Below are positions 1,101-23,388 of a stretch of DNA of 24,456 nt, piece by piece. Position numbers and translations under genes: made by a program. Numbering within the stretch: the first letter of the stretch is position 1; each line of letters begins with the position of its first letter. The DNA comes from a virus. The stretch spans positions 1 to 24,456 of the IMG/VR virus record IMGVR_UViG_3300034374_002326. One strand, 5' to 3'. Under the pieces are notes generated by a model that worked only from the letters and a program-made list of their open reading frames with translations, was not told the DNA's origin and searched no databases.

Positions 1101-2629
1101 AGTTCTTAGACAGCATGCCACAAGAGGTAAGGGACGACATCCGCAAAGCACTCAGCAAAGCGGACAAGTTCGTGAGCATGCTGTCTATTCAGGACAAACG
1201 CAGCCACAAGATGGTCAAGTTCAAGATGAACGATGAGCAGAAGCACCTGTTGAAAGAGTTGCAGGCGCACAATCGGATCATCATATTAAAGCCAAGACAG
1301 ATTGGGGTAAGCACCTTGTTGAGGGCATATGCTTTCTGGGATGCCTATACAGCCAAAGAGCCAGTGCAATGGGGTGTGATCAGTTTCCATGACCGATCAG
1401 CCAAGCACTTGCGTAGGATGGATGACAAGTTTCACAAGAGCTTACCCAAACTTTTGCATCGTCAGTTTTCCGTATCCAATACACAGGATTTGGAATTCAA
1501 GGATACAGGAGCCAGATTATCATCGTACACTGCAGGGTCTCGTGGGGGGACACGGTCGTTTACGCTGACTTCGGTACACTTGAGCGAGTTTGCATTTTAT
1601 GACGATCCTGATGAACTACTGGCGACCACAATGGCGGCAGTGGGTGAGGGACAGGTCATCATAGAATCAACACCCAATCGGGCTGGCGATGCATTTCACC
1701 GTTTGGTGATGGGGGCACCGGAGAATGGATGGAGGCTGTGTACCTTTTGGTGGTATCAGCACGAGGCATATCGGGTGCATGTAGGGGAGGACTTTGAGCC
1801 AACGGCTGAGGAAGCGGCAATGGCGGAGGTCTATGAGCTAGACAAAGAGCAGATCATGTGGAGGCGGCAGCAGATAGCTACGCTTGGTCTGGAGAAGTTT
1901 AGGCGTGAGTATCCAGCGTGTTTGGATGATGCGTTTCATTTTACGACTTCGACATATTTTCATGGGGATGATTTAAAGAAGATTGAGCCAGTGTGGTTTG
2001 ACAAAGCGGACAGGCGGTATGAGCATGCGGAGCCGAACGATGCGTATGTGATGGGCGTGGATGTGAGTGCGGGTGTGAATCTGGACTATTCGGTGATTAC
2101 GATTGTGTCATTATCGACTTTGCAAGTGGTATATCAGTATCGGACAAATACGGTTCCACCAGTGATGTTTGCGGAGAAAGTAGCGGACATGGGTTGGGAA
2201 TACAACAATGCGATGATTTTGTGTGAGAGCAACAATCATGGTCATGTGGTGTTGACACGGTTGCGGGATTTCAAGTACAAGAATCTGTGGCGTGATGCTA
2301 AGGGGAAAGACTGGGTGACGACAGTCAAGAGCAAGTTGGATGCGTATGAAACGCTTCGTGAGTTCATTGTGGCCGAGATTATTGAGATGTTGGACATGAC
2401 GACGATTATGGAGCTGCGCTCATTGATGGTGGAGAAAGTGACACCGGAAGCTCCGAAAGGGTTGCATGATGATATGGCAATGTCGTTGGCATTGGCTTAT
2501 AGGTGTACCCGTGATGTGCCAAGACGCATTTTGCGCAGGGCGCAGGAAAATATGGTAGATGATTTTATCAGAAGCCGTAGAGTCGGTAGACGACAGGCAG
2601 ATCCAATCGCATGGGGGCGTAACGAATGA
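1097..2629 (+). CDS. terL: Terminase large subunit (packaging ATPase and nuclease)
   Basis: This 510-residue protein powers DNA entry into the procapsid at the portal vertex and cuts the concatemer. The ATPase half shows a Walker A variant LKPRQIGVST at 64-73, Walker B with catalytic Glu near 158-164 (SVHLSE) and a coupling motif ESTPN at 190-194. The RNase H-like nuclease half shows MGVDVSAG around Asp322, LCESNN around Glu377 and HDD at 457-459, the usual three acidic positions. Length and motif order are typical and complete. The start overlaps terS (ATGA) and the stop overlaps the portal start (ATGA at 2626), so the three are translationally coupled. No truncation or frameshift is seen. 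Confidence 0.96.
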   Translation: MKFLDSMPQEVRDDIRKALSKADKFVSMLSIQDKRSHKMVKFKMNDEQKHLLKELQAHNRIIILKPRQIGVSTLLRAYAFWDAYTAKEPVQWGVISFHDRSAKHLRRMDDKFHKSLPKLLHRQFSVSNTQDLEFKDTGARLSSYTAGSRGGTRSFTLTSVHLSEFAFYDDPDELLATTMAAVGEGQVIIESTPNRAGDAFHRLVMGAPENGWRLCTFWWYQHEAYRVHVGEDFEPTAEEAAMAEVYELDKEQIMWRRQQIATLGLEKFRREYPACLDDAFHFTTSTYFHGDDLKKIEPVWFDKADRRYEHAEPNDAYVMGVDVSAGVNLDYSVITIVSLSTLQVVYQYRTNTVPPVMFAEKVADMGWEYNNAMILCESNNHGHVVLTRLRDFKYKNLWRDAKGKDWVTTVKSKLDAYETLREFIVAEIIEMLDMTTIMELRSLMVEKVTPEAPKGLHDDMAMSLALAYRCTRDVPRRILRRAQENMVDDFIRSRRVGRRQADPIAWGRNE

Positions 2630-4332
2630 TTACAGCTAAGATTTTACAGGCCTTGTATGAGCAGCATGAGGAATACTGGCGCAATGAGCGGCCCAAGATG
2701 CGCAAGTTAAGGCTGGCGTATAACTGTGAGTATTGGGACAAGAGAGATAACTATGGTCAGATTCTCATTGATACGACACGGGCGTATGAGTACATTGAGG
2801 GGTATATTGCGTCATTGTTTACACGGTCGCCTGCGGTGGTGTTCAAAGCAGATGTGCGTGGTCGTGGAAATCCGATTAAAGCGCAGTTGATGACCAATGC
2901 GTTCTTAGACAGCATTAGAACGCAGTTGGAAGATGCCAGTCGGTTGGCGTTGATATATCCGGCAGCTTTTGTGAAGTTGGTTCCGAATGAGAATCCAGAT
3001 CCTTTTAAGCGGATCAGTGCGGTGGCGATTAATGCGTGGGATGTGATTGTGGATACGGATGCAGCCAGCTGGTATGACCAGCGGTTTGTGGCCCATCGGT
3101 ATTATATGACATTGCAAGACGCAAGAAAGAAGTTTGGTAACAAGCGGTTTGTCAGTGCGCCATTGGTGAAGTACTTGGATTATGTGGATGGTGAGGAAAG
3201 TCGTGGCTATGGAGGCAGAAAAGCATCTGAGGAAACGGAGCCCGTTTTTGAGTATGTCGAGATTGTTGAATGTTATGATTTTCGGAGCGATAAGCTCAAG
3301 ATATGGTCTCCTGATTATGCACATGGAGAAAAGTTTTTGTATGAGGGTGTTGTCATCGAGGAAGGTGAAGGCGATGCAATACAAAAAACCAAGTACGAAG
3401 ATATACCGTTTCGCTCCGCATCAGATGCGCCTATAAGTCCGATTGTACCTTTGTATTACTCACGGCAACCCGATGTACCGCTTCGTGGGTACAGTGCGCT
3501 TTTTAGAGTGTATGATCAGGTACAGGAAACCAATGTGATTCGGACATATCAGGCCAACATGGTGAGGCGTGCAGCCCGTCAATGGGTTGTTGAGCAAGGC
3601 GTGTTCGATGCCGATGCCATGTCCAAGTTGGCACAAGGTGTCGATGGTGAGTATGTGGAGGTTGAGCTTAGTCCTGGTCAGACATTGGCTGGGAGCATTA
3701 TGGCTGTGCCACATAATCCTGTACCAGCCGAGCTTCAGCAGTATGTGAATCAGGTCAATGACGACTTTCAGCGTGGCTCAGTGATGGCTCCGTTTACACG
3801 GGGTGAGGCGACCAAAGCGACTGCGACTGAGGTAACGGCTTTGGCGGCTTATTCCTCATCGGAAGTTGGGCGTTTGGCCAGAGAGCGTGATGCGATGATT
3901 GAGCATCTTTCGGCTGTATATGTGTCTATGATGCAGGTCTTTTTAACTGAAGATGCCGATGTGATTGTGCTTGATGGGGCTACACAAATCCTTAAAGGGG
4001 AAGATTTAGATGGGGACTTTGGCATTTATGCTCAGGATATGGGCAGCACACCCGTCAGTGACAACATTAAGAAACAAGAGTTTTTGAATATATTGCCTGT
4101 GCTGCAACAACTTGGTGTACCAAATGAAAAGCTGCTCGAGCAGATTGTGCGCAACTATGACTTGCCAGAAGATTTACTAGATGTGCCAGCCCCAATGCCA
4201 GCTGCCATGCCAGAGTCACCACAGCCCGCAATGGGTATGGGAGCAGGCAGTGTGAATCCAATGGCCGCAGCAGCAGTCGGAATACAACAACCCAGCCCAC
4301 AGAACATCAGCAGGATACTACCCAATGTCTGA
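2626..4332 (+). CDS. Portal protein
   Basis: This 568-residue protein follows the large terminase and precedes the scaffold and capsid genes, the classic portal position. It would form the dodecameric ring for DNA entry and exit. Family-like features are an N-terminal region with many Tyr and Trp (EYWRNERPKMRKLRLAYN), a clip and stem region in the middle, and a helical stretch near residues 395-440 (TRGEATKATATEVTALAAYS then EVGRLARERDAMIEHL), the pattern often seen in podovirus portals before the wing and crown. The C-terminus (about 523-562) is rich in Pro, Met, Ala and Gln and is probably flexible. The start overlaps terL; the end overlaps the next gene by 8 bases. Confidence 0.9.
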   Translation: MITAKILQALYEQHEEYWRNERPKMRKLRLAYNCEYWDKRDNYGQILIDTTRAYEYIEGYIASLFTRSPAVVFKADVRGRGNPIKAQLMTNAFLDSIRTQLEDASRLALIYPAAFVKLVPNENPDPFKRISAVAINAWDVIVDTDAASWYDQRFVAHRYYMTLQDARKKFGNKRFVSAPLVKYLDYVDGEESRGYGGRKASEETEPVFEYVEIVECYDFRSDKLKIWSPDYAHGEKFLYEGVVIEEGEGDAIQKTKYEDIPFRSASDAPISPIVPLYYSRQPDVPLRGYSALFRVYDQVQETNVIRTYQANMVRRAARQWVVEQGVFDADAMSKLAQGVDGEYVEVELSPGQTLAGSIMAVPHNPVPAELQQYVNQVNDDFQRGSVMAPFTRGEATKATATEVTALAAYSSSEVGRLARERDAMIEHLSAVYVSMMQVFLTEDADVIVLDGATQILKGEDLDGDFGIYAQDMGSTPVSDNIKKQEFLNILPVLQQLGVPNEKLLEQIVRNYDLPEDLLDVPAPMPAAMPESPQPAMGMGAGSVNPMAAAAVGIQQPSPQNISRILPNV

Positions 4333-4789
4333 AATTAAAGCCAAATACAGGTTTATGACCTACAACGAATTCAAAAGCAGTCGGGGCCTTAGCCCTAGAC
4401 GCTACCATTGCCGTGCAGAAGAATGTGATACCATGACCTATGTGTGGTGGTATGACATTAACGACATGACTTTTAAGATTCCTTGTAAAGGCTGTGGGCA
4501 TGATGCCGGATATGTGGCGGGTAAGCTGCGGCCAATACCTGTGAATGGCATTAACCAGAAAGGGTATTACGACAAGGCACTGGGTCGATACATCGAAAGC
4601 CATGAACACAAAGACAAGGTCATGGCCGAGCTTGGTGTGCGCCCTGTTAGCAATGAAGAAATCGAAACGAACATGCAAGAGCAGATTAATGATGCTATTG
4701 ACCATGAGCGTCAGGTGCAAACATTTACCCGCACCATGAAAGAAACAAACTCATTTGCCGCAGCGGCAAGATCAATCTCGGAGGAATAA
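4325..4789 (+). CDS. Zinc-ribbon-like phage protein of unknown function
   Basis: This 154-residue protein carries two cysteine pairs, C29 and C34 (CRAEEC) and C54 and C57 (CKGC), with an aromatic stretch between them (YVWWYDIN). It looks like a small zinc ribbon. The following segment (LRPIPVNGINQKGYYDKALGRYI and ESHEHKDKVMAELG; about 68-103) resembles phage proteins in this position that are often annotated FmdB-like regulators, where a ribbon is followed by a GRxVxSRxxRxxxLxxxG-type motif. The rest is helical and charged. It overlaps the portal gene by 8 bases and sits in the head-assembly block, so a role in head or portal assembly is more likely than transcription control, but that is inference. 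Confidence 0.65.
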   Translation: MSEIKAKYRFMTYNEFKSSRGLSPRRYHCRAEECDTMTYVWWYDINDMTFKIPCKGCGHDAGYVAGKLRPIPVNGINQKGYYDKALGRYIESHEHKDKVMAELGVRPVSNEEIETNMQEQINDAIDHERQVQTFTRTMKETNSFAAAARSISEE

Positions 4790-6266: not shown

Positions 6267-7346
6267 ATGGCTATACAACCAGATATTTTAGCGTCGACCC
6301 TGCGTATCCTCCGTGATCGAGAAGTGGATAACACCTTCCGTGCAATCCCTCTCCTCGATGCGGTTCAGCGTGCAGGTAATGTCGAGCAATCCGATGGTGG
6401 TCAGAAAGTTGACTGCCCAACAATCCTCACTGAACACTCAAACATCACCCAGCTGAGCACTGGCTATGAAGCCGTAAACCTTGCTGTGCGTGATCCACTT
6501 CGTACTGCGACTTACAACTGGTGCGACTTTGTTGCGCCTATCGTCTTGACGGAAAAGGAGCAACTGTCCAATAAAGGTGACCGTGCGGTCATCAAAATTG
6601 CAGAGGCTCGCCTTAAGTCTGTTATGGGCATGCTTCAGCGTGAATACTGTAAGCAAGTCGTTGCTGGTACATCAACTGTTCTTACCGAACTTGAAAGCCT
6701 TAACGGTGCTACACAAAACGGTACTCGTGCCAATGGCTGGTTTGATACTTTAGCTTTTGGTGCTCAGACTGCAACCGTTGGTGGCATTGCTAAATCAGCA
6801 TATCAAACTTCATGGCAGAATCAATTTGTAAACTGCTCAGTAGATATTGGTGGTTCAAGTGGTGGTACCTATGATCCAACAGGTGCACAGTTATTTCAAT
6901 CAATGACACGCGTATTGATTGACAGTCAAATCTATGCACCAGAGGGTGAAGTTGACATTATTCTTGCGTCACCAAACAGCTATGAACTTTACAAAAATAG
7001 TTTGTTTGCACAAGAGCGTTATACTTCTATGTCTGAAGAACGAGATATGGCTGGTAAACTTGGACTGTTGTTTAACGGTGCAATGATGTACATTGATCCG
7101 AATCTTCCAATTACTGGTGTAGACTACGATGATGGTTCTGCCCGTACCAATGGTAAGATTTCAATGTATTTCTTGAACTCTAAACTGTTCAATGTGTACT
7201 TTGATAAAGACGCTTACTTTGAGCTTGGTGATTATGAGCGCATCAGCGGTTATGCTGCTATGGCTGCTAACATCATGGTTCGTACACAGATTACCACTGC
7301 TAACCTTTCAGGTCATGGTGTTATTATGAATGGGGAGAAAAGCTAA
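6267..7346 (+). CDS. Major capsid protein
   Basis: This 359-residue protein follows the scaffold and is preceded by a long leader with GGAGAGAG (6256-6263). Features expected of an HK97-fold capsid protein are present: a short N-terminal arm with ILRDREVDNTFRAIPLLDAV, a beta-rich E-loop-like region (about 50-90), a long helical backbone (EARLKSVMGMLQREYCKQVV; about 112-131), a core with LIDSQIYAPEGEVDIILASPN (about 215-236), and a C-terminal strand region (YFELGDYERISGYAAMAANI). No cleavage site or protease is obvious, so assembly probably depends on the separate scaffold. By eye the first part uses more C-ending codons than the terminase and portal genes, as expected of a very highly expressed gene. 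The stop overlaps the decoration gene (TAATG). Confidence 0.92.
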   Translation: MAIQPDILASTLRILRDREVDNTFRAIPLLDAVQRAGNVEQSDGGQKVDCPTILTEHSNITQLSTGYEAVNLAVRDPLRTATYNWCDFVAPIVLTEKEQLSNKGDRAVIKIAEARLKSVMGMLQREYCKQVVAGTSTVLTELESLNGATQNGTRANGWFDTLAFGAQTATVGGIAKSAYQTSWQNQFVNCSVDIGGSSGGTYDPTGAQLFQSMTRVLIDSQIYAPEGEVDIILASPNSYELYKNSLFAQERYTSMSEERDMAGKLGLLFNGAMMYIDPNLPITGVDYDDGSARTNGKISMYFLNSKLFNVYFDKDAYFELGDYERISGYAAMAANIMVRTQITTANLSGHGVIMNGEKS

Positions 7347-7901: not shown

Positions 7902-9197
7902 ATGCGTTTGTCTGAAATAAGAGATTACATCACCAACATATTGGACTATGACCCAGCCAATACCACTTTTGACGGGCAGACAGACGACATTATCAATGAC
8001 TGCTACCGCAGGTTGTTTGCTGAAAAGCCGTTCTTGTTTGCTCAGAAAGAGGCTAAGGTTACAGCATATAAAGATGTAGAAGTGCCTGTTATACCAACGG
8101 GCTTGAGCAACATTATGATTACAAGTGCGCCTAACTTTTTCCCAGAATGGATTGAGGGCCACATTGTAGCTTTTGATGGTGAAGAACTTACCGTCTTGTT
8201 TCGTTTGAATCCAACAACCATTTATGTAGACAAAACTTTCGATGCATCTGCCGCAGCAGGTACGGCTACATTTAAGATGCGGTACATAGACATGCCGCAA
8301 GACTGTACACAAATCCTACAGGTGGCCAAGCGCAGCTTAACCATTACACCTGTAGAACCTGGTCGGATGATACCGTTGACTCGCTATGAAGATGAGTGGT
8401 GGAACTTGCCGCTCGATGAGGTCAACATGCCATATTACTGGGTGCAATACGATGACTACAACATTGTTGCGCCTCGTAGGGTGGCTGCTGCTGGGTACAC
8501 TGTTGGAGCAGGACAAGGTGTCCGTACGATTGATGTGGCAATGACCTACCAATATGGTGTGGGTGCTACTTACCGTGAAAGTGCCATATCAAAAGTGACC
8601 ACATTGACATTGTCTGATACACAGAATTTGCAGATTACCAATGAGAACTTAGGGGTAGATGCATTTGCATATCGCAAGATTTATGTACGCTGTTCCGATG
8701 AAGATTTAAATGTGTGGCGTTTGGTGGCTGACAGCAGCGGACAATCCACTACTATTGCCCCGAACATATCAACAGTCCGCAATTACGATGTGTCGTTGTC
8801 CAGCTTACAGTCGCAGACATGGGAGCAAAACAATCCACGCTTTACATATCCCGATGGTTGCACACAGCGTGTCCGTTTGTATCCCCGTCAAGATGCCGAC
8901 TATGACATGACCGTGCGCTACATGTATCGACCACCACGACTGGTTGAAGATCACGACACGCCTGAGTTTCCCAATGCTCACCATCTTGTTCTGGCTTACA
9001 TGGCCCTTGAGCAGATATACATGAAAACAGATAACTTGACACAATCCAACATGTACAAGATGAAAGCCGACAGCGAAGTCGTCAAGATGGAGAAGCGGTA
9101 CTTGACACAGGCTCCAAAGCGTTGGGTTAAACAGTTTATGCCTGATGGACAGACTGATGCACAGCCCATCTATACTGCGTTGAGGCATACACCATGA
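7902..9197 (+). CDS. Head-tail adaptor protein with Fn3-like insert
   Basis: This 431-residue protein starts at an ATG with AAGGAG (7891-7896). The N-terminus (MRLSEIRDYITNILDYD) and the C-terminal part (about 325-405; VRLYPRQDADYDMTVRYMYR, then a helical region around LAYMALEQIYMK) fit phage adaptor or tail-tube A proteins that dock on the portal. Between them, residues about 205-300 form a beta module (MTYQYGVGATYRESAIS, then YRKIYVRCSDEDLNVWRLV) of the Fn3-like kind common in phage tails. Similar sequence occurs in the following nozzle gene. Families such as T7 gp11 or P22 gp4 are shorter, so the extra length is explained by the insert. The stop overlaps the nozzle start (ATGA). Confidence 0.75.
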   Translation: MRLSEIRDYITNILDYDPANTTFDGQTDDIINDCYRRLFAEKPFLFAQKEAKVTAYKDVEVPVIPTGLSNIMITSAPNFFPEWIEGHIVAFDGEELTVLFRLNPTTIYVDKTFDASAAAGTATFKMRYIDMPQDCTQILQVAKRSLTITPVEPGRMIPLTRYEDEWWNLPLDEVNMPYYWVQYDDYNIVAPRRVAAAGYTVGAGQGVRTIDVAMTYQYGVGATYRESAISKVTTLTLSDTQNLQITNENLGVDAFAYRKIYVRCSDEDLNVWRLVADSSGQSTTIAPNISTVRNYDVSLSSLQSQTWEQNNPRFTYPDGCTQRVRLYPRQDADYDMTVRYMYRPPRLVEDHDTPEFPNAHHLVLAYMALEQIYMKTDNLTQSNMYKMKADSEVVKMEKRYLTQAPKRWVKQFMPDGQTDAQPIYTALRHTP

Positions 9198-11287
9198 AGA
9201 ACCGTGTCGTCAGCATCCAAGCACTTGGCGGCATGAATCAGCTTTTGCCACAGCCAGAGATTGATGCTTCTGAGATAACAAACTGGACTGTTGATGAAAA
9301 CAGTGGTGGCTGGACCACACGCTGGGGATATGAGCGGTACAATCCGGTGCCGACCAATGGCTTTAATCCGTTTCAGACATTGCTGCGTATTGACAGCGTC
9401 TATATTCATAGCCGTAGAAATCGGGCAATGGAGGTCGTGCTGCTCACTTCTCAGGGCACTTTGTACTATGTCAATGATTCGACAGGTACAATGACACTGA
9501 CGCCTCTCCAGTCAGGCCGCAATGTACCGGCCAACAATGAGCTGCCAACACAGTACATACCTTATGGGAAGTTTACCATTATTGTCAATGGTCAGGATGA
9601 ACCATTGAAATTCGATGGGTGGCCTGTTGATCGAAGCAGTTTTGCCAATACCCCATTGTACACACCACTTGGTTTTCCGCAGCGACCACAGGCCCCATCG
9701 GTATGGCAGGTCAATCCAGCATACGATACGGCCAATGATGGGGTAAGCATTTCGATTTGGTTTCAGCGCACGGCTGGTCGAGGGCTGGGTTTGCCTGCTG
9801 TAACCAATGACAAAGAGAACCGTTTTAAATACAAGGTCAGCTTTATCTCAGAAACAGGAAGCGAAAGCCCATTATCTGATGCATCTGAAACAGTATCGTG
9901 GACAAGCGATCATGCCACATATCCAGAGCTTCGATATGCTGTTGCGATTGAGATACCAACAGGAGGCGATAATGTCGTTGCCAGAAACATCTATAGAACC
10001 AAAAACTTTAGCAGTGATGCGGGCAATGACCAGACATTTTATTATGTCGATACAATACCTAATAATGTCGATCAGCTTTATTACGATAGCACTTCTTCTG
10101 GTGCGCTTGGCAGTGTAGCCCCAAATGATTTACAGAGCGTTGTATTCCCAGCCCCTAGAGCCACAGTCGGTGTGGATTTTCAGGGTTGTTTATTCCTGAA
10201 TGGCGGATCAACTGATGCGCATACCTTGTACTTCAGCAATCCATTGAAGCCGGACCAGTTTGGGGCTTTTGATTTTATTACTGTGGGTAACTCAGAGGGC
10301 GGTGGTATTACTGGGCTGCATACCTATTACAGCACGCTGCTTGTATTCCGAGAGCAGTCCATTGATGTGGTGACTGGCTCTTATCCTAACTTCCAGCTGA
10401 CTCAAGTAAGCCGCAATGTGGGAACGGTAGCCACCAATACTATTACGACCATACCACAAGTCGGTGTTGTGTTCTTGGCCGAAGATGGTGTGTATCTGTT
10501 TACTGGTGGTGGGGCTGGCGTATACGGTGGAGCAGTCGCCAATATACAAAAGCTAAGCTCACCTGTTCATCGTACTATAAAGTCGATCAATAAAGCCGTG
10601 CTAAGTCGTGCAGTCGCATCGTATTCTGCTAAGCATGGAGAATGGCATTGCTACTTTGCACAAGAGGGCGCAGAGAAGCCGAATATAGGCATTGTGTTTC
10701 ATGTAGACAAACAAGGCTGGAGCATCCGTAAAGACATGCCAGTTTCATGTCTGACGGCTGACAGAGCAGGCAATCTAATCTTTGGGCATAATACTGGGGC
10801 GGTTGCTGCCGGTGACCCTGCTGGTTTGTTTGTGTTGTCGTTTCGAAGAACCAAAGGCCAAAGCAAAGTGGGCGACAGTATTGTTGACAACGCAGCTTTT
10901 ACCAGCACTTACTTCAGCCGTTGGCACGACTTTGGTGACCCTACCAAAAAGAAGAAAGTGCATCATGTTGTATTGTACTGCTTGACGGCTGGAGATACGG
11001 CTTTACCGCTTGAACACTATATTGATTTTTCATATACAGGTACAGCGGCTACCAGCATGAAACAGCAGCGACCAGACCATGCGGACCAGTTTGTATATGA
11101 CAAGGCTGTACTTGACACAGATACATGGGAGGATCAGTTTCTTACCCAAATACGCTATAGTGTGGCGACCAATGCCTGCTCACAGTTTGCTTTTAAGATA
11201 GAAACAACAAACGATACGACAATACTTGGGTATGATTTACATTATACAGAGATTGATACTAAGATTGTGGGAGGCAAGCCAGCATGA
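9194..11287 (+). CDS. Tail nozzle or tail-tube B-like protein
   Basis: This 697-residue beta-rich protein follows the adaptor, as T7 gp12 and P22 gp10 do. Early segments (LPTQYIPYGKFTIIVNGQ, then LKFDGW; about 116-138) and later ones (GVDFQGCLFLNGGSTDAHTL then YFSNPLKPDQFG; VVFLAEDGVYLFTGGGAGVY) are repeated blade-like strands of a nozzle beta-propeller. Residues about 209-305 carry a Fn3-like module (YKVSFISETGSESPLSDASE, then ARNIYRTKN) also present in the adaptor. The protein would form the distal end of the short tail that opens during infection. The start (ATGA with the adaptor) and the stop (ATGA with the next gene) are both coupled. Confidence 0.8.
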   Translation: MKNRVVSIQALGGMNQLLPQPEIDASEITNWTVDENSGGWTTRWGYERYNPVPTNGFNPFQTLLRIDSVYIHSRRNRAMEVVLLTSQGTLYYVNDSTGTMTLTPLQSGRNVPANNELPTQYIPYGKFTIIVNGQDEPLKFDGWPVDRSSFANTPLYTPLGFPQRPQAPSVWQVNPAYDTANDGVSISIWFQRTAGRGLGLPAVTNDKENRFKYKVSFISETGSESPLSDASETVSWTSDHATYPELRYAVAIEIPTGGDNVVARNIYRTKNFSSDAGNDQTFYYVDTIPNNVDQLYYDSTSSGALGSVAPNDLQSVVFPAPRATVGVDFQGCLFLNGGSTDAHTLYFSNPLKPDQFGAFDFITVGNSEGGGITGLHTYYSTLLVFREQSIDVVTGSYPNFQLTQVSRNVGTVATNTITTIPQVGVVFLAEDGVYLFTGGGAGVYGGAVANIQKLSSPVHRTIKSINKAVLSRAVASYSAKHGEWHCYFAQEGAEKPNIGIVFHVDKQGWSIRKDMPVSCLTADRAGNLIFGHNTGAVAAGDPAGLFVLSFRRTKGQSKVGDSIVDNAAFTSTYFSRWHDFGDPTKKKKVHHVVLYCLTAGDTALPLEHYIDFSYTGTAATSMKQQRPDHADQFVYDKAVLDTDTWEDQFLTQIRYSVATNACSQFAFKIETTNDTTILGYDLHYTEIDTKIVGGKPA

Positions 11288-13427: not shown

Positions 13428-14051
13428 ATGGCAATAGGTACAATAGCAGCATTGGCCGCACCAGCATTGTTACGAGCAGGCGGTAATATTTATGCAGGCT
13501 CACAAGAGTTTACACGAGATGACCGTGAGCGACTGCGTGAGCTTGAGCGTCAACAAGCGTTGGGCATGTTGGGTATGTCACCAGCAGAGCGTGAGCGTGC
13601 GCAGCGTCAGATTATGCAGCCCCTACAAACGATTGAGCGTGAGGCAGCAATGCAGCGTGGCTCAGAGTTAGCGGCACAAGACTTGGGTCAGGGAGCGGCT
13701 TATCGTCAGATGCTGGCTGAAGATCAACTGCGACAGCAAGGCAGACTGGCAGCACAGCAAATGCTTCAGCAACAACAAGAGGCAGCCATAGCCCGTGATG
13801 AGGCAGAGATAGCCCGACTTGAAGATGCCCGTAAGCGTAGACGACAGATGATGGTTGGTGGCGCAACAGAAGCATTGGCTCAAGGTGCAGAAGCGGCTTA
13901 TGCAGGATACCAAATGGAACAGCAACAAGCATTGCAGCGACAGTATTATCAGGACATGATGGCGTTGGCTCGTGAGCAACAACAAGCATTACAATATGTG
14001 CCGCCAACCAATTATGCGTATGCCAATCCCACTCAAGTATTTTCAAGGTGA
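13428..14051 (+). CDS. Internal virion protein, gp14-like (helical, Gln-rich)
   Basis: This 207-residue protein starts at an ATG with GAGGTAG (13419-13425). It has a hydrophobic N-terminal helix (IGTIAALAAPALLRAGGNIY; residues 3-22) and a long Gln, Ala, Arg and Glu-rich coiled coil (about 30-185). T7 gp14 is 196 residues, forms part of the internal core and is ejected to help build a channel across the outer membrane. The size, the hydrophobic N-terminal segment and the place before a mid-size and a giant gene match that plan. There is no sequence match I can name, so this is positional inference. Confidence 0.55.
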   Translation: MAIGTIAALAAPALLRAGGNIYAGSQEFTRDDRERLRELERQQALGMLGMSPAERERAQRQIMQPLQTIEREAAMQRGSELAAQDLGQGAAYRQMLAEDQLRQQGRLAAQQMLQQQQEAAIARDEAEIARLEDARKRRRQMMVGGATEALAQGAEAAYAGYQMEQQQALQRQYYQDMMALAREQQQALQYVPPTNYAYANPTQVFSR

Positions 14052-14054
14052 TGT

Positions 14055-16028
14055 ATGAATAATGGTCAATACTATGGCACGATTGGTGCACAAGGCTATG
14101 CACAACTGTACTCACAGCTGTTTGATCAAATGCAGCAGCAGCTTATTGCCTCCAATATATCTGCACAGAAACGACAGCAAGCTCTTATGCAAATGGCCAA
14201 TAGTGCGGAGCAAAAATCCAACTATTATCATCAACAATTGTTGAAAGATTATCGCAAGGCGCAAGGCGGAACCAACATTAACCACAACAGCATTATGGGT
14301 CTGTTGTCTGTTGAAACCAAATTATTGGCATTAAAGTTAAAGTTGGAAGCCAAAGCCGCTGAAAGTGGACAACAAGCCGACTTACAGTATTTTGAAGATA
14401 TACAAGAGATTGAAGATTTATACAATCCAAGTAAAAATACACGGTTTGAAACAGCCATAACAACTGCAATACAAGATAATCCAAATGCTTTAAGTACACC
14501 ACAAGCACAACAAGCAGCCGTTACCGCAATACTAGATAATCAAGTTATACAAAGTACTTTAAATGGCATTCAAGATGAGGGCTTAAAAGCTGCATATTTA
14601 AATCATCTAACAGGCCGTATACAATCAGAACTATTTAATCTTCAAGAAGAATCAGCAGGTATACCTTTAATACGAACTGAAGCATTGGCTAAGTATGGTT
14701 TGACTGAGGAACAATCAACTGAAGATAAAGTGGCAGCGTCTTTAGAAGCCGCTAAAGGAAAGATACAAAAAGTAAGTGCTTTATCAGCAGATGTAAATCA
14801 AATCAATGAATTGATGGGTGAAGCTCGTAGAGCACGCTCCGGCACAGCAAAGGGCATATCAACAGAAGATGAGCGTAGGGCTGTTCGATTATTTGCAGAT
14901 CCTGAGTTTGCAGCTTTTATTCGATTGTATGATGCGACCAATGGTCAGCCTACTCAACAACAACTAGACAAGTTTTTTGAGGACAATCCTAAGACTGATA
15001 AGCAAGAGATTGGTCGCCAGTTTGCACAGGCCAAAGAACTGTACGCTACAAACATGGCACTTATCCCAGAAGAATATGTAGATGTGTTCTTTGAGCCTAT
15101 TCGTAAAGAACGCCAGCGAGCGGCACAGTTAGAGGGTGAGGCTGCTTTGACTGGCATGCAAGTCGCACCAGACTTGGAAAAGCTAGCGGCCCAGCGATTC
15201 TTACAATCCACACCTGCACCTATATCATTGTATACACGGGAGCAAAAAAAGGATTTACGCAAGGGTGTTTATGTCCCACAGGCGGGTACAGATGTGCAGC
15301 AAACAGATGTGTCCATCCAGGCTTTGTTGCGTGAAAGTCCAGCATATCGAGAGTGGTATAATGCCTTGAGTTCGGGCGAACAGGTCATGCAACGGTATGG
15401 CACAAGTGCAGATAAACTGTTTAAAGAAATGCAGGCAAATCCCAATATGGCTCCAAAGGGTCGGGCACAAAAGCTGGCAATGCAACTATATACAGCAACA
15501 CCTATTGGCGGTAAGTTATCTGCTGATGAACTGGTCAATCAGACTGCTGAGGCATTGAAAGATAAGGACTTACAGGATGAAGCCAGAGCCTATTATGCTG
15601 CGTTGATTATGAATCGGGATGCCGATACTCAGGCCCCAGTAGAAACGCAAGAGGCCAATGTACAAGCCAATGTTGAAGAAGATATGGATTTTACATTTAG
15701 AGAACGCATGATGGGCCAAAGAGCAATGCGGGAATATGAGCGTACAAATAAGCCTATACCTCCGCTTGTAGAACCAGCATTACAACCACAAGCACAGGCC
15801 GAAGAAGCAGCACAGTTAGCAGCCATGTATCAAGATCCAAATGCTATGGATGCAGTAGACATAAATGCTTTTACTAATAGGCAACCGACTGAGTTTGAGC
15901 GCATGGTATATAGTGACCCAACAATGACAGAAGCACCAACAGCATTGCCATTAAGCAGTCAACAGGCAATAGATATAATGTATCCTCAAGATGCTTTGGA
16001 TAAATATTTGTTTGGAACTAAGCAATGA
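14055..16028 (+). CDS. Internal virion protein, gp15-like (657 residues)
   Basis: This 657-residue, mostly helical, Gln-rich protein starts 3 bases after the previous stop. The N-terminus (GAQGYAQLYSQLFDQMQQQL) and middle show no lysozyme, transglycosylase or peptidase motif. T7 gp15 (747 residues) occupies the same place between gp14 and gp16 and forms part of the core and the periplasmic tunnel. The C-terminal part (about 520-640) is acidic with many Ala and Gln, and probably flexible. The stop overlaps the giant gene (ATGA at 16025), so the two are coupled. The functional name is inferred from position. Confidence 0.55.
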   Translation: MNNGQYYGTIGAQGYAQLYSQLFDQMQQQLIASNISAQKRQQALMQMANSAEQKSNYYHQQLLKDYRKAQGGTNINHNSIMGLLSVETKLLALKLKLEAKAAESGQQADLQYFEDIQEIEDLYNPSKNTRFETAITTAIQDNPNALSTPQAQQAAVTAILDNQVIQSTLNGIQDEGLKAAYLNHLTGRIQSELFNLQEESAGIPLIRTEALAKYGLTEEQSTEDKVAASLEAAKGKIQKVSALSADVNQINELMGEARRARSGTAKGISTEDERRAVRLFADPEFAAFIRLYDATNGQPTQQQLDKFFEDNPKTDKQEIGRQFAQAKELYATNMALIPEEYVDVFFEPIRKERQRAAQLEGEAALTGMQVAPDLEKLAAQRFLQSTPAPISLYTREQKKDLRKGVYVPQAGTDVQQTDVSIQALLRESPAYREWYNALSSGEQVMQRYGTSADKLFKEMQANPNMAPKGRAQKLAMQLYTATPIGGKLSADELVNQTAEALKDKDLQDEARAYYAALIMNRDADTQAPVETQEANVQANVEEDMDFTFRERMMGQRAMREYERTNKPIPPLVEPALQPQAQAEEAAQLAAMYQDPNAMDAVDINAFTNRQPTEFERMVYSDPTMTEAPTALPLSSQQAIDIMYPQDALDKYLFGTKQ

Positions 16029-19000
16029 GCCAACCACAATCCACACTGGCTGATGTAGACAAAGCCAAAGCCGCATTGTCACAGCTTATGCAGGTCAGGT
16101 ATACACAAGACCCGACTGCTTATGGATACACACAAGAAGAATTTGATGAGCTTGTACCTTATATGGACAGAGCCATATCAGATGCCAATGTGGCTATTCG
16201 ACTGGCTGAATACAATATACGAGAGCGTGGTGGCACAGACATTGATTTGGGTGCGTTTCAAGACCCACAGAATATATTCCGAAGCGGATACATAAGAGAA
16301 GAACAGCAGCGTGCAGTGGCTGGTGCTCGTGAAGAACTGGCCTATATACAAAACGAAATAGGCAATATAGATACAGAGCTGACAAACATTGCATTGACCC
16401 CAGAGCGTAGGGTAGAGCTGGAAGAACGCAAGCGTTTATTGCAACAAGATGCTGCTGTTATACAAAGTGGTCAGATGTTTCAAGCAAGACGACCAGTCGC
16501 TACCAAGCCGTTGTATTTAAGTGAACAGCGGCCAGAGCCAGCAGTAATGCAGACACTTCGGAAAGATGCAGCAGACGCAGAATTTGTGCGTGTGTTGGCT
16601 CAGACTGAGGGGGACAGAGAAGCAGCAGAGCGGGCTAGACAAGAGGTATATGACCGTTCGTTCGCTCCTCTAGTCCAAGATGTGGCTGGTGGGCCAAGTC
16701 GTATGGCAAAGATCGCCATGCCTGAGCTTAACATTGACATTGCCACAGGTACTTATGTCAATCCAGTTACCGGAGAAACCAGAGAGGCAACGCCAACAGA
16801 GATTTTGGGTGCGGCTTTACGGCCACAGGTAACACAGATACGGTCAGCAGAAAGTGAGCGTGCCAAAGCCATGCAGCAAAGACAGGCTTTAGAGCAGGCT
16901 GCGCAGCGTGGTGAGCTTTTGTCTGAAACAGCAGGACAGGGCTTGTCAGAAATATTTGAACGGGCAGTCCAGACACCTAGTCGCAGAGCACCAGATGTAT
17001 TGGTAGAAAGTCCTGCGATGTATGCGCTTCGGGTGGCATTTGCTATGCCAAGTGCATTGACAGGTTTAGCCGCTGAGGCTGTGACCTATGATGTTGATGC
17101 ACAGGGTAACCCGATTGACCCGATGGATTTGACTTACAAGGTACAAGATTATTTGTTTAATGGCATGACACCTGCATATGGCGGCTTGCCATTGCTGGGT
17201 GTTGATGTAGAAAATGTACCAGAGAGGCGTAACTGGGCGGATGCGTCATCGACATTTAATCTGGCGGCATCATCTATTGCAGATGGTGTGTCGTTTTATG
17301 AGATTAAACAGGCTATGCCTGCAATGAATGTTGAGGATACAGAATTTGATACCTTGCGTAGCACGATTCTGGGAGCCTCAGCATTAGGTTTAGATTTCTT
17401 AACACCATCTGGGCCTGCTGAATTAGCAACCGTATTACCAAAAGCTATGCGCAAAAGCATGAAAGTATTGCGTACAGAGCGTGGCATCCCATTTCAGATT
17501 GATTGGACATTGGATGACATAAAGAATGGTGATTTTCTTTTTAAGTGGGATGACCTTAGCAACTCATATAAATTTGGTATTAAGACCGACAAGATTAAGT
17601 TTACACCGCTTGCCGGTACTGGAGAGAAAGGCATTATAAATGTGCCAGTAAACTTGGATACGATTGATGACTGGTTGAAAGGGGCCAGTGAGGTATCGTT
17701 GTTTGGTGCATTTGCAGGAACAACAAAGGCAACAGCTGGGCAAGTGTATAAGTACGAGCTTAACCGATTGATTGATGAGGCCTTTACAAATCGTTCCTCT
17801 ATGAAAAGCATTGGTGGTTGGAACATAAATAATGTGCAAGACGCTGCGGCCAGAGAAATAGCATACAACTTGACCGACTTGACGGCTGCTCGTATCTTTG
17901 GCAAGACAAATGATACATTAGAATGGACTGCTAAAACCCTAGATAACTATGCTGAATGGAGCAACTTTTCACGCATTGATGTAGACAATCCATTTCGAGT
18001 TACTATATCTGTTGCTGAAGCTATTGGACAGGACATACGGATTATTGGGAGAGGCTTAGAAGCCTTGCCAAAATCATTGCTTTATACAAGTGTTTTTAGA
18101 AACAATCTGATACGAGCCGCAGCAAAATCAAAGCGGTGGCAAAAGAATCCGATTTTAAAGAATACATATCGCCAACAAAATTATAAAGATGTACCTGAGT
18201 ATTTATATAAAGCCGTTATTAAAGACGAAGAAGTCGTCAGAGAAGCCGTTTATCGAACACTGCGTGATGTGACCAAAGAGCAGCTGTACAATCGACTACC
18301 AATAGATATGATGTTTGTGGCTGGTGGTAGACGCATCATACATTTTGCTCAGTTTAATGAACAGAATCAGCTTAGGGTTGCGGCTATGATGGAGGTTGTA
18401 AACAATCCACAGCTTGCAGAGGGCGGCTTTCGACTTGGTAAAAATGTAGATGAACAGGTTGAATTGTTTATAGATGGTGTGGGTATTGACCAGATACGAC
18501 AGAGCGATGACCTTAAGCGTTTACTGGACAAGCTCAATAAGAACCAAGTGCTTACACCACAAGAGTATGCTTTGTATCAAGACTATATTGAGGCCGGTGC
18601 TTGGAGCAATGTGCTTGAAGATGCATATGAACCAACATTAATGTCGCAGGCTGCATACACAAATGCAACCGAGCTACGCAGCAATGATGTATTTTTGCAA
18701 CGCTCAGAACAAGCAGCAAGAAAATACCTTAAGGCTTCATCGAATTTATATACACCAAAAGCTATTGTAAAGGCATATCAACGCTACCGTAAGACACCTC
18801 AGACGATTGTATCTGATCGGGCTGGACTGGCTTATGTTAACAAACTAGACAAGAGCGTATACATTACACCAAAGCCATATTTGGATATGCGAGATAACCT
18901 TAATGCGCTTCGGTCAACAGAGTATGATTCGTTCAATGCTCGCCTAGAAGAACTGATGGGTCAGGGCTTAAATGGTGGTGAAGCACTTGGTGTGGCTATG

Positions 19001-22000
19001 AATGAGTCTGTTGAGATTATTACAGCAGCCAGACAAAGCATCTATACGCAACGGTATTTGAAAGAGCGTCAGGCACTTATCAGTGGCGGCATGGAGGCAG
19101 AGGCAGCATCGAAAACGGCTATGGAATCTATTATGCTTCAGCAAGATGCTAACAATTCTTTTAATTCGTACATGGCTGGTCGGCCCAAAACCAAAGACAT
19201 GCGCCCAATAGAAAACATACGCATGTTTATTGTTGAGTCGACACGCAAAGAGGTATTGACTGATTATTTTGATAAATTCTTTTATTTGCCAGAAGCAAAT
19301 GCAACAGCAGAACTAGAGCGTTTATTGCGTAGATATGCACAAGATTTTGAAAGCCCGATTACGCCTCAGTATTTGTATTACATTCATCGAGATATTATGA
19401 GTGTGCCTCAGCTTAAAAAGAAACTAGAATTCAAAAATTTGCTTACATTAAAACTGGATTTGGCTAATAATGCGTATACCACAGAAGCCAACCTTGAAAC
19501 AGGTTTAATGTTTACATTGTCATTGCGCTCTAAGGTGCGGTACAACTCAGAGATTGAGCGCATTATGACGCAGTATCCATCGTTGTATATTGACATGGTG
19601 GTAGACCCAACACAAACCTTGATCAAGCAATCACAGCCAGAGCGTTTGGTATTGGCTGCTCGTGAGGAGGGATTTAGGTTTGTACAGCGGATTATTGAGG
19701 GGCCAGCTGGTGATGGGTCAATCCCTGCCAAAATAGACAATGTAGAGGACATGCTGTTCTTTTTGTTAAATCCAAGACGGGATGAAAATGTATTCAATGT
19801 GTTGGATGCTGAGAAGATTAATACCCTAGAAACAAAGGTCACAAATAAACGAATACGAACAGTCGTTAAACAATTGGATGAAGCGTTGGATGCTTCTGCA
19901 AAAGCTGCTTTATTTAGCACTGCTGGTGAGCGTACAGAAATAGCAAACAGCATGATACAAGGTATGATTATGCAGAAGATTAATAGCAACAATCTTCCGA
20001 CACAATCATTTGTTAAGCTGGCATTAAAACAAAATGGTGGTGATTTAGCCAAAGCATATGAACAGGTTGAAGCTGCATTGGACAATCTGAAAATATTATT
20101 TCGGTATCCAACTAAGCAAGCAAAGATAAATACTGAGCAAAGACTAGACAGTTTGCGCAATGTATTGTTGTCAAATACAATGGGCTTGAACATGTCCTAT
20201 ACAGGCAACATGTCTGACCTAAGTTTTATTAAGACGGGTGCATATGAAAATACTCAGATAGCCACAACACCATTGCAGCTTTTGGAATATGAGATTGACC
20301 AAGTGCTGCGGTCATACGGCATTGTGTTTGGCCCAGAGCAGTATGATGATGCCATGCATACTATGCTTGAAAATTATCGGCCAGTACTTAGCAACATGGA
20401 CATATCTGGCATCAATATGTTTATGGGAAAAGAGTTTGCAGATACGATTGGCGAGCTTAAGAACCTGGCTCAAGGTGCTGATTTTAGACAGGCATTGGAT
20501 CAGTTTCGTGAGGTAACACGCAAGGTCAAAACAAAAGCTGACTATGACGAACTGCAAAAAGCACGGGTCTATAAGAATGCTTTAGATGCGCTGGCACGAA
20601 TACAGATGACTGGTTTATTGGGTGGTGCTATTGCGCCAAACATACCGTACTTAGCGCAGAACTTATTGACGATGCCATTTATTATGGTCACAGAACTGGG
20701 TGTAGATAAAACCTTGTCATTGACTAGGCATGTTGTGTCTGATGTAATGAATGTGGCTATGCCAACTTTTTCAACGCTAAAGGACACTTCTCCCTTTATT
20801 CGAAGCAGAACAGGGCGCATATATACTTTGGGTGAGTATAAGAATTTGCTCACTACTCAGGAGATAGCAACGACCTTTTCATCTTCTCAGTTTGCTGCAT
20901 CATCATTGGCCGAGCTTGTTCGTACGCTGCGTGCAGACAGTGAGCTTATACAAATATTGGACAAAGAGATAGCCAAAGGCGTCAAAGAGATTGGCTATAA
21001 GGACCCTGTATCTTTCTTTACAACGCTGGGTAGATATGCTGACCCCAGAGTGCGTACTTATTTTACAATGCTCAGTCATGTAACAGACATGAATTTTAGA
21101 CGGGCTGTATTTGCACAGGCACTTGAAGATGGATTGACCCCAGCAATGGCAGCCAAGCGTAGCCGTGAGGCATTGTATGATTATGGTCGGGCACGGGAAA
21201 CAGCACGAAAGCAGGCATTGGGTAAATGGATTGGATTTTTTAGTTTCTTTGAGCGATCATTGTCAGCCACATTCAAAGCGATAACGACCCGTAGAAATGA
21301 GGCCTTAAAAGTATTGCGCTTGCAGGACATATACAACAAGAATCAAGAGGGCGTATATGTAGGCGACAGTCGTCAGATGTCCCGTGTTTGGCAGTATATG
21401 GTAGATACTGGCACTGAGAAGAACTTGTATGTAGGTGGGCCATTAAACCCGTTGTATGAATCATTTGCGCTGATTGTAAACACAATGGCATTTGGTACTA
21501 GCTTTGTAATGGATACTATTCAAGGCAAGCCGACATTGCTCGGGCAAACATTTAATGATGTTATAGACAGAAAGCCCTTGCTTCCTTTGTACATGACCTT
21601 TTTGGATGCTGTCCTTAAAACAACAGACCTGACTAATCCACGCAATCCGTATGATGCCAACACATATTTGCCTGCATCGTATATGTCAGCAATGACCAAT
21701 AGGCCAACACGCCAATTGTTTATGACCATGTTCAATCTGGAGCCTGTTGCGCCATTGGAAGCAAGGCCAACATATCGCAATCAGATGTACAGATTTGCTG
21801 ATAAGAATGGATACTCAGCTTTTGTATCGCTTGAATTGTTAATGTCATTGACAACCATTCATCGCTTTACATTGGATGCACTGAAAACTGCACAGGTCAG
21901 TGGAGCAATAACGCAGCCTCAATACGACAGAGGCTATTACCATGCTGTGAATTCATGGACAAAGTTTACTGGTGATTCATTGGCTTGGAAGCAGCTGGAG

Positions 22001-22114
22001 GGTGCGATATTGTATCAGACAACAATACTACGGCCTGAGCTTAGAGCATCACCAGAGGGTATTTTCTTAGAAGCAGAAATGGCTAGAAAACAACAACTTG
22101 AAGCATTAAAATAG
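16025..22114 (+). CDS. Giant virion protein, gp16-like ejection protein (2029 residues)
   Basis: This single 6.1-kb frame is a quarter of the window. It is largely helical. The first 300 residues are charged and coiled-coil-like (for example EREAAERARQEV type runs). Hydrophobic stretches occur near 330-350, 1530-1559 (GGAIAPNIPYLAQNLLTMPF, then IMVTELGV) and 1808-1832. A segment near 1714-1750 (REALYDYGRA, then GKWIGFFSFFER) resembles a C-terminal motif often seen in very large phage virion proteins (short DY element, then an aromatic helix with FER). No T7 gp16-type transglycosylase, peptidase or N4-type RNA polymerase motif is visible. By order and size trend it parallels T7 gp16 (1318 residues), which is ejected into the host and pulls in DNA. 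The start is coupled to the previous gene. Confidence 0.6.
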   Translation: MSQPQSTLADVDKAKAALSQLMQVRYTQDPTAYGYTQEEFDELVPYMDRAISDANVAIRLAEYNIRERGGTDIDLGAFQDPQNIFRSGYIREEQQRAVAGAREELAYIQNEIGNIDTELTNIALTPERRVELEERKRLLQQDAAVIQSGQMFQARRPVATKPLYLSEQRPEPAVMQTLRKDAADAEFVRVLAQTEGDREAAERARQEVYDRSFAPLVQDVAGGPSRMAKIAMPELNIDIATGTYVNPVTGETREATPTEILGAALRPQVTQIRSAESERAKAMQQRQALEQAAQRGELLSETAGQGLSEIFERAVQTPSRRAPDVLVESPAMYALRVAFAMPSALTGLAAEAVTYDVDAQGNPIDPMDLTYKVQDYLFNGMTPAYGGLPLLGVDVENVPERRNWADASSTFNLAASSIADGVSFYEIKQAMPAMNVEDTEFDTLRSTILGASALGLDFLTPSGPAELATVLPKAMRKSMKVLRTERGIPFQIDWTLDDIKNGDFLFKWDDLSNSYKFGIKTDKIKFTPLAGTGEKGIINVPVNLDTIDDWLKGASEVSLFGAFAGTTKATAGQVYKYELNRLIDEAFTNRSSMKSIGGWNINNVQDAAAREIAYNLTDLTAARIFGKTNDTLEWTAKTLDNYAEWSNFSRIDVDNPFRVTISVAEAIGQDIRIIGRGLEALPKSLLYTSVFRNNLIRAAAKSKRWQKNPILKNTYRQQNYKDVPEYLYKAVIKDEEVVREAVYRTLRDVTKEQLYNRLPIDMMFVAGGRRIIHFAQFNEQNQLRVAAMMEVVNNPQLAEGGFRLGKNVDEQVELFIDGVGIDQIRQSDDLKRLLDKLNKNQVLTPQEYALYQDYIEAGAWSNVLEDAYEPTLMSQAAYTNATELRSNDVFLQRSEQAARKYLKASSNLYTPKAIVKAYQRYRKTPQTIVSDRAGLAYVNKLDKSVYITPKPYLDMRDNLNALRSTEYDSFNARLEELMGQGLNGGEALGVAMNESVEIITAARQSIYTQRYLKERQALISGGMEAEAASKTAMESIMLQQDANNSFNSYMAGRPKTKDMRPIENIRMFIVESTRKEVLTDYFDKFFYLPEANATAELERLLRRYAQDFESPITPQYLYYIHRDIMSVPQLKKKLEFKNLLTLKLDLANNAYTTEANLETGLMFTLSLRSKVRYNSEIERIMTQYPSLYIDMVVDPTQTLIKQSQPERLVLAAREEGFRFVQRIIEGPAGDGSIPAKIDNVEDMLFFLLNPRRDENVFNVLDAEKINTLETKVTNKRIRTVVKQLDEALDASAKAALFSTAGERTEIANSMIQGMIMQKINSNNLPTQSFVKLALKQNGGDLAKAYEQVEAALDNLKILFRYPTKQAKINTEQRLDSLRNVLLSNTMGLNMSYTGNMSDLSFIKTGAYENTQIATTPLQLLEYEIDQVLRSYGIVFGPEQYDDAMHTMLENYRPVLSNMDISGINMFMGKEFADTIGELKNLAQGADFRQALDQFREVTRKVKTKADYDELQKARVYKNALDALARIQMTGLLGGAIAPNIPYLAQNLLTMPFIMVTELGVDKTLSLTRHVVSDVMNVAMPTFSTLKDTSPFIRSRTGRIYTLGEYKNLLTTQEIATTFSSSQFAASSLAELVRTLRADSELIQILDKEIAKGVKEIGYKDPVSFFTTLGRYADPRVRTYFTMLSHVTDMNFRRAVFAQALEDGLTPAMAAKRSREALYDYGRARETARKQALGKWIGFFSFFERSLSATFKAITTRRNEALKVLRLQDIYNKNQEGVYVGDSRQMSRVWQYMVDTGTEKNLYVGGPLNPLYESFALIVNTMAFGTSFVMDTIQGKPTLLGQTFNDVIDRKPLLPLYMTFLDAVLKTTDLTNPRNPYDANTYLPASYMSAMTNRPTRQLFMTMFNLEPVAPLEARPTYRNQMYRFADKNGYSAFVSLELLMSLTTIHRFTLDALKTAQVSGAITQPQYDRGYYHAVNSWTKFTGDSLAWKQLEGAILYQTTILRPELRASPEGIFLEAEMARKQQLEALK

Positions 22115-22138: not shown

Positions 22139-22516
22139 ATGGCACAAACAGGTCAATTAAATAAACAGAAAATTGTAACAGGCTCAGTATCGGTAACCAG
22201 CACATCATATGATGCAGCCAAATATTTGAGCGTGGAGCTACCATCGAACATTACGCTGAGTCTGATTCGCTTGAGTGGCACATTTGTCACAACAACAAAG
22301 GTCAGTATTCAGGTCAGCCGTGATGCCGCTGGGGATGACATATTGATCCCAGATACAGAGGCAACGCTGGCTATTGGTACAACCACAGCGTCAGTAGGTG
22401 TTGCAATGTTTGAAGTTGAAACAAACATTTATACACAGGGCGAAATCTTTATCCATGCCAAAGTCGATGCAGGCACATATACATGGACAAAAGCTGAAGT
22501 GTATTGGAGAGAATAA
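22139..22516 (+). CDS. Small beta-rich virion protein
   Basis: This 125-residue protein starts at an ATG with an AAGGGGG site (22127-22133). It has alternating Val, Thr and Ser strands (KIVTGSVSVTSTSYDAAKYL and SIQVSRDAAGDDILIPDTEA) and ends in TYTWTKAEVYWRE, an arrangement of a single beta-sandwich. It precedes a larger beta-rich gene with which it overlaps by TAATG. No family is recognised; a small structural or fibre-associated protein is inferred. Confidence 0.6.
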   Translation: MAQTGQLNKQKIVTGSVSVTSTSYDAAKYLSVELPSNITLSLIRLSGTFVTTTKVSIQVSRDAAGDDILIPDTEATLAIGTTTASVGVAMFEVETNIYTQGEIFIHAKVDAGTYTWTKAEVYWRE

Positions 22517-23388
22517 TGCCTATATCTCGTGTGAATTTTCAAAGCGTTGCTATTCCTCCAGCTACAGATTCAGGTGGCGGAGGTGGTGGTGGTAGCAGTA
22601 ACTGGGTTGAGATTGCAGCTGGTGATCTTACACTTGATGCTCAGTCATACACGACTTTCAACTTGGCGGCTTCGGCTGTATCTGGATATGCGCATCGCAT
22701 TAATATAGGTGCTGACACTGGTGCTGCAACCAATACATTTAATATGGCTCAGGCAGGTATTGTATGGTTTGATACAGGTATATCTCTTGATACGCTTACA
22801 ACTGGTGAGGGCACTCAGGGTGTGCTTCAGATGCAGTTTGAACCAGCAGGTGTTGATTCATCGAGCACTTATTACAGCGATACAGATCATCCACAGTCTG
22901 TAATACTATGGTGCGGTTTTGATGTGCCGCCATTTGCCAGTGGAGATATGGTGTATTTTGGTGGTGGATTACAGTTAAGAGCAAATGCTGGATTAACTAA
23001 TAATGACGGTTGGTATCATCAAACTCGTATTATGAGGACACAAAATACAACAACTGCATTAGCAGGTTCATCATATCTGTTTGGTTATCGCTTTCAGAAT
23101 TTGGCTATGACGGCAACGTTTGGTAAAACTTACAGCACAGCAACTGAATTAGCTATTAGCCAAGTTGATTGGAATGGAACCATTTACCGAAATGATGCCG
23201 GTTCTTATGTTGATTATGCAATGTTATCAACAATCTCACAAGTAACAGATTTGTTGAATACAAAAACTAGTGATTCAGCTACAACAATCAAAATCGGTGT
23301 TGCTTTCAATGTTGGAACCACCATCGATGCATCAACACATGGTTGGGATTTTAATCTAAAATGGCGTAAGCTGTTGTTGGAGGCATAA
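22516..23388 (+). CDS. Beta-rich virion protein with polyglycine linker
   Basis: This 290-residue protein starts at an ATG in a TAATG overlap with the previous gene. A slightly earlier in-frame codon at 22504 has no advantage. The first 19 residues form a short docking tip, followed by seven consecutive Gly (20-26) and then a beta-rich body (WVEIAAGDLTLDAQSYTTF, then VLQMQFEPAGVDSSSTYY, ending in WDFNLKWRKLLLEA). A short anchor, a flexible Gly linker and a beta body suit a fibre, a receptor-binding protein or a decoration fibre. The position just before the holin candidate matches T7 gene 17, the tail fibre. The family is not recognised. Confidence 0.6.
   Translation: MPISRVNFQSVAIPPATDSGGGGGGGSSNWVEIAAGDLTLDAQSYTTFNLAASAVSGYAHRINIGADTGAATNTFNMAQAGIVWFDTGISLDTLTTGEGTQGVLQMQFEPAGVDSSSTYYSDTDHPQSVILWCGFDVPPFASGDMVYFGGGLQLRANAGLTNNDGWYHQTRIMRTQNTTTALAGSSYLFGYRFQNLAMTATFGKTYSTATELAISQVDWNGTIYRNDAGSYVDYAMLSTISQVTDLLNTKTSDSATTIKIGVAFNVGTTIDASTHGWDFNLKWRKLLLEA

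Follow-up and report, generated by a model that had tools for sequence, protein, structure and literature searches.

In phage T7, three ejection proteins of increasing size, gp14, gp15 and gp16 (196, 747 and 1318 aa), are encoded after gp12, and the phiKMV-like phage LUZ19 has a comparable arrangement in gp34-37, in which gp35, gp36 and gp37 have 181, 898 and 1337 aa. The same size order is seen in N4 (gp52/51/50), P22 (gp7/20/16) and JC1 (gp67/68/69; 196-510-4515 aa). Previous studies showed that gp15-like proteins diverge quickly in sequence and are thus recognized mainly by their size and synteny (PMC8954989), that the transglycosylase is a trait of a T7-like subset and is not universal in the gp16 class (PMC8954989), and that the giant polymerase serves as third ejection protein of Schitoviridae (PMC10925440). 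JC1 gp69 was detected in virions by mass spectrometry (PMC9144972). Here, we analyzed an IMG/VR record, linear and 24,456 bases long (hereafter, the window), which contains three genes with the same size order and the same layout as all of these sets. The product of the third gene, a protein of 2029 aa, is most likely a giant ejection protein of the gp16 class from a lineage of short-tailed phages with small genomes, and it is probably helical and conduit-forming. That it works in a gp16-like manner is well supported by its context; by sequence, it is a candidate member of the class.

The genes for the large terminase subunit, portal, capsid, adaptor-like, nozzle-like and triad proteins, the 125-aa gene after them and the protein segments mapped below are on the + strand. 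The gene order in the window is small terminase subunit (TerS), large terminase subunit (TerL, 1097-2629, assigned by homology search), portal protein (2626-4332, phrog_1216), three small genes, major capsid protein (MCP, 6267-7346, phrog_9953), a 160-aa gene, an adaptor-like tail or structural protein of 431 aa (7902-9197, assigned by profile comparison), a nozzle-like tail protein of 697 aa (9194-11287), three further genes and the set of three (hereafter, the triad). When the nozzle-like profile was compared with a 541-aa protein of Pseudoalteromonas phage vB_PtuP_Slicky01, a podovirus by its name, the hhalign probability was 97.5%; the adaptor-like profile matched another Slicky01 gene with a probability of 84%, and these two Slicky01 genes adjoin each other. 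Relatives of the nozzle-like protein fall in PHROG families labeled internal virion protein or "amidase". These labels may be wrong, since both its location and its conservation point to a tail nozzle. A 154-aa gene between the portal and MCP genes (4325-4789) has 4 Cys residues, with a family mean of 2.9%; in this it differs from other structural genes of the window, and its product is possibly metal-binding.

The triad consists of tightly coupled genes for proteins of 207 aa (13428-14051), 657 aa (14055-16028) and 2029 aa (16025-22114), located downstream of the nozzle-like gene. Thus, the arrangement is that of the gp16 class: co-oriented small, medium and large genes after a nozzle gene, with the giant in third place. 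The 207-aa protein has a hydrophobic N-terminus rich in Gly and Ala, as in a gp14-like small partner, followed by a Gln/Arg-rich and likely helical part. Its homologues gave weak matches to glycine zippers, and it is predicted to form a pore. The 657-aa protein is gp15-like by size and position. It evolves far faster than the giant protein, a behavior known from gp15-like proteins, varying from 441 to 876 aa in relatives, and its profile misses distant homologues. No peptidoglycan-hydrolase domain was found in the triad by Pfam, PHROG and motif searches. The giant gene is followed in most relatives, as in the window, by a 125-aa gene (22139-22516). Next to it, a 294-aa gene (22504-23388) was recognized in just two of the nearest relatives, its neighbors being widely conserved, and looks exchangeable.

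The giant gene begins with ATG at 16025, which overlaps the stop codon of the upstream 657-aa gene (CAATGAGC), and runs to a stop codon at 22112-22114 with no internal stops. It occupies 6090 of 24,456 bases (24.9%), in exact agreement with the first-pass annotation, which had described a 2029-residue reading frame taking a quarter of the window. Direct searches with the protein in Pfam, PHROGs, NCBIfam, PDB, cultured-phage records and IMG/VR returned no matches, and the view that most of it carries no recognizable motif was therefore borne out against the first five of these collections. Since the direct search gave no relatives, we reached them by searches with TerL and MCP. The giant protein was present in nine records found in this way and in 14 more detected by alignment-based scans. 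Homologues thus occur in 23 further IMG/VR records, and they have the same gene position wherever the contig reaches the region. The order nozzle-like gene, three genes and triad (about 200-310, 441-876 and 1769-2338 aa) was kept in all relatives whose contigs extend this far. The homologues, their same position and intact frames of 1769-2338 aa show that the reading frame is a genuine gene and not a chance one.

Our working set of 20 sequences comprised the window protein and its homologues, some of them fragmentary, with full lengths of 1769-2338 aa. Identity was 28-35% in a near group and 14-22% in a far group. The longest variant (L056, 1392-8408; G018; 2338 aa) has an extra stretch of approximately 300 aa, coiled-coil-like, in mid-chain. 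The relatives' genomes are small phage genomes: in one of 34.9 kb, the two ends share an exact repeat of 127 bases, which is expected of a circular assembly, and another of 30.7 kb has a near-identical end repeat of 714 bases with 25 mismatches. A prophage copy was not found when bacterial and archaeal genomes were scanned with one family member. The family of the 2029-aa protein had not been filed before; it is a new sequence family of a known kind of machine. Comparison of family profiles A6 and A7 by hhalign with the ejection proteins of T7, LUZ19, P22, P-SSP7, epsilon15 and N4 revealed no similarity, the targets being single sequences and the sensitivity limited accordingly.

The family alignment revealed two conserved regions. 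The N-terminal block (residues 222-361, 16688-17107) contains G222, E328, R336 and G361, which are invariant or nearly so, and the motif [IVL]VE[ST]P. The C-terminal family domain covers residues 1500-2029 (20522-22111). AlphaFold2 models were mostly helical and unreliable, both for residues 1-900 (pLDDT 59, pTM 0.35) and for residues 860-2029 (pLDDT 46.5, pTM 0.26). Moderate confidence was limited to residues 8-154 (16046-16486; pLDDT about 66-94), modeled as long helices or a coiled coil, and to residues about 600-870. Fold matches of the models in PDB were generic helices and coiled coils. A search of BFVD with the N-terminal half gave one good match, A0A516LG04_1 (E 6e-6, 18% identity), which is nameless and adds no function. 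For an N-terminal transglycosylase, there was no Pfam or PHROG match, and an SLT-like motif was absent in relatives.

The strongest hydrophobic segment is located at residues 1810-1832 (21452-21520). It is thus close to the C-terminus, where gp16-class proteins have putative membrane-interacting helices and where the corresponding segments of T7 gp16 and LUZ19 gp37 also lie. The best 19-residue Kyte-Doolittle mean was 1.41 (residues 1814-1832), compared with maxima of 1.44 at residue 1137 of T7 gp16 and 1.64 at residue 1211 of LUZ19 gp37. This value is under usual transmembrane levels, and the segment is therefore no clear transmembrane helix. The several hydrophobic stretches reported previously are thus weakly confirmed: the stretch at 1814-1832 is present, but it falls below the transmembrane level.

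A further feature of the triad is the lack of Cys. No Cys occurs in its 2893 residues (0 Cys and 7 His in the giant protein), whereas eight neighboring proteins of the virion region have 25 in 2928 (Fisher p about 6e-8), and the mean of the giant protein family is 0.03%. Six known ejection sets showed the same tendency, with 7 Cys in 14,977 aa against 58 in 9,423 aa of other virion proteins, drawn from five of the same phages (p about 2e-17). JC1 gp67-69 have no Cys in 5221 aa. It should be noted, however, that the residues counted are not independent of each other and that some other head proteins, i.e., the N4 capsid protein and the products of two small head-region genes of the window, likewise have none; the absence is correlative and supports the assignment but does not prove it. 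It is plausible that the lack of Cys reflects unfolded passage through the oxidizing periplasm. Our literature search found no earlier account addressing the absence of Cys in ejection proteins, although it may still have been reported.

One homologue carried an additional domain. The 2054-aa protein L084 (5444-11608 of its record) has one clean insert of approximately 290 aa (residues about 899-1188), flanked on both sides by conserved sequence, which is absent from its near relatives L093 (1769 aa) and L094 (1771 aa) and lies apart from the extra stretch of the 2338-aa variant. The insert is a zincin (HExxH) domain with the motif HELLHAAT. It matched PDB 9sfn_G, an internal virion protein of the LUZ19-like type (E 2.9e-13), and phrog_2206, an N4-type virion RNA polymerase (E 4.8e-15). 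The same domain occurs in LUZ19-like gp37 and in 111 phage records overall, some of them annotated as a DNA ejectosome component. The HExxH domain of the N4 protein, C1, is separate from its polymerase part (PMC12633501). Injected polyvalent proteins commonly contain zincin-like peptidases (PMC5512222). In the window protein, the corresponding slot (residues about 984-1057, 18974-19195) has no insert and consists of only about 75 poorly conserved residues. The HExxH motif was absent from all 19 other sequences of the set, the window protein included. The first-pass annotation considered hidden domains plausible; this holds for the family, given the L084 zincin, but not for the window protein, which has neither HExxH nor a match to an enzyme family. 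As far as its sequence tells, an effector domain seems to be absent from it.

The best-conserved part of the family is the aromatic segment noted previously as DY...FER near residues 1714-1750. This segment is present, with D1719-Y1720-G1721, F1738, F1741 and FER at 1742-1744; Y, G and both Phe are invariant, but "ER" is not. It is part of a larger core motif (residues 1688-1744, 21086-21256), D-x3-R-x3-F..G..AA..R....DYG....F..F, in which D1688, R1692, F1696, G1703, A1709-A1710, R1714, Y1720-G1721, F1738 and F1741 are fully or almost fully conserved. When profiles were compared, that of the C-terminal region aligned 71 columns, with a score of 29.0 and a pairwise E of 0.016, to a profile of JC1 gp69 C-termini, and the alignment pairs the core motif with the segment just before LPD38. 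As a control, none of 100 column-shuffled profiles reached this score (maximum 24.5), and the scores of profiles A6 and A8-A11 did not exceed 18.6. A loose motif pattern matched only the window protein and JC1 gp69 among reference ORFs totaling 174,000 residues, a descriptive and not independent result as the pattern was written after both proteins had been seen. No match in phages was obtained with a consensus written by hand for the C-terminal core. A search for LPD38 (PF18857) in eight records also gave no match, but was uninformative because the control was silent too. The likeness to other giant phage proteins claimed at the outset thus holds weakly, for JC1 gp69, and the match suggests a domain common to it and the family.

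These observations bear on an alternative explanation, that the 2029-aa protein is a polyvalent effector whose main task is to act on the host (through DNA protection, enzymes for nucleotides or RNA, or proteases) and not to build a DNA channel. Its large size and location next to late genes would agree with such a function, as would the zincin of L084 and the core weakly shared with JC1 gp69, which has LT, methylase-helicase, LPD3 and LPD38 domains (PMC5512222). However, no Pfam, PHROG or NCBIfam domain was detected in the window protein or in eight other members at E values up to 10, while polyvalent proteins have at least two disparate enzyme or binding domains per chain. In addition, HExxH is missing, the insert is restricted to a single sequence of the 20 in the family alignment, and the C-terminal domain, where conservation is highest, is predicted to be helical and shows no catalytic signature. 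We consider the effector function unlikely.

Even less probable is a function as tape measure in the tail of a long-tailed phage. The protein is long, helical and encoded near tail genes, and weak BFVD matches of its N-terminal half (E above 0.01) include several tape-measure proteins, but it matched no tape-measure PHROG, and no genes for a tail tube, sheath, tail terminator or chaperone were recognized in the window. Moreover, nozzle-like and adaptor-like genes are located upstream, and small hydrophobic and medium partners precede the giant; this synteny led us to drop the tape-measure assignment. A divergent N4-type virion RNA polymerase, which could be suspected from the giant third triad member, as in N4, and from the L084 match to phrog_2206, was dismissed as highly improbable because this match covers the zincin region alone (profile positions 1982-2248) and not the polymerase, the window protein does not match phrog_2206, and R..DYG, in our own reading, lacks the motif B lysine and the spacing of T7/N4-type polymerases.

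A gp16-class ejection protein is therefore the explanation we prefer. Like T7 gp16 and LUZ19 gp37, the window protein is the third and largest of its set, is Cys-free and has a hydrophobic segment near the C-terminus, but it is about 50% longer and has no detectable similarity to them and no transglycosylase was found in it; the zincin of LUZ19 gp37 is shared by L084 and not by the window protein. With N4 gp50, it has in common the position as giant third member of a Cys-free triad, and the C1 zincin is common to N4 gp50 and L084, but no polymerase domain was found in the family and its length is 2029 aa versus 3500 aa. JC1 gp69 (Bcep22-like, DarB-type) is likewise part of a Cys-free triad and shares the weak DY...F..F match, whereas its many enzyme domains and LPD38 have no recognized counterpart in the window protein. 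The earlier proposal of a virion protein delivered with DNA is favored by the third position in the triad, the lack of Cys and the conserved synteny.

For packaging, ejection, order of exit, membrane docking and DNA uptake, we infer the following course. The 2029-aa protein would be packed in the capsid, probably above the portal. During infection, the 207-aa protein would exit first and form an outer-membrane pore, and the 657-aa protein would form a periplasmic tunnel. The giant protein would then thread unfolded through portal and nozzle and refold, its helical N-terminal portion resting on the tunnel, and the large conserved C-terminal domain may dock at or through the inner membrane and take in DNA. 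The variable central slot has received a zincin in at least one relative; thus, a protein of this kind can carry cargo, although the window protein seems to be without any.

Our analysis proposes a function for an orphan family whose gene takes up about one-fifth of the small genomes of these uncultured phages, and places a small-medium-giant ejection cassette in a lineage for which no cultured member was found. L084 is a specific example of an ejection protein that has gained an enzyme-like domain by insertion, and the Cys signature provides a simple and testable rule to spot ejected proteins among unknown viral genes. More tentatively, it is possible that the C-terminal core (D-x3-R-x3-F...G....AA...R....DY/DF...F..F) is an ancient domain of giant ejection proteins, meaning this family and those of the DarB/LPD38 type, which are otherwise thought unrelated, and that the mid-chain is a landing slot for effectors such as zincins. 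If so, the shared core and the absence of Cys would make giant ejected proteins recognizable by sequence alone.
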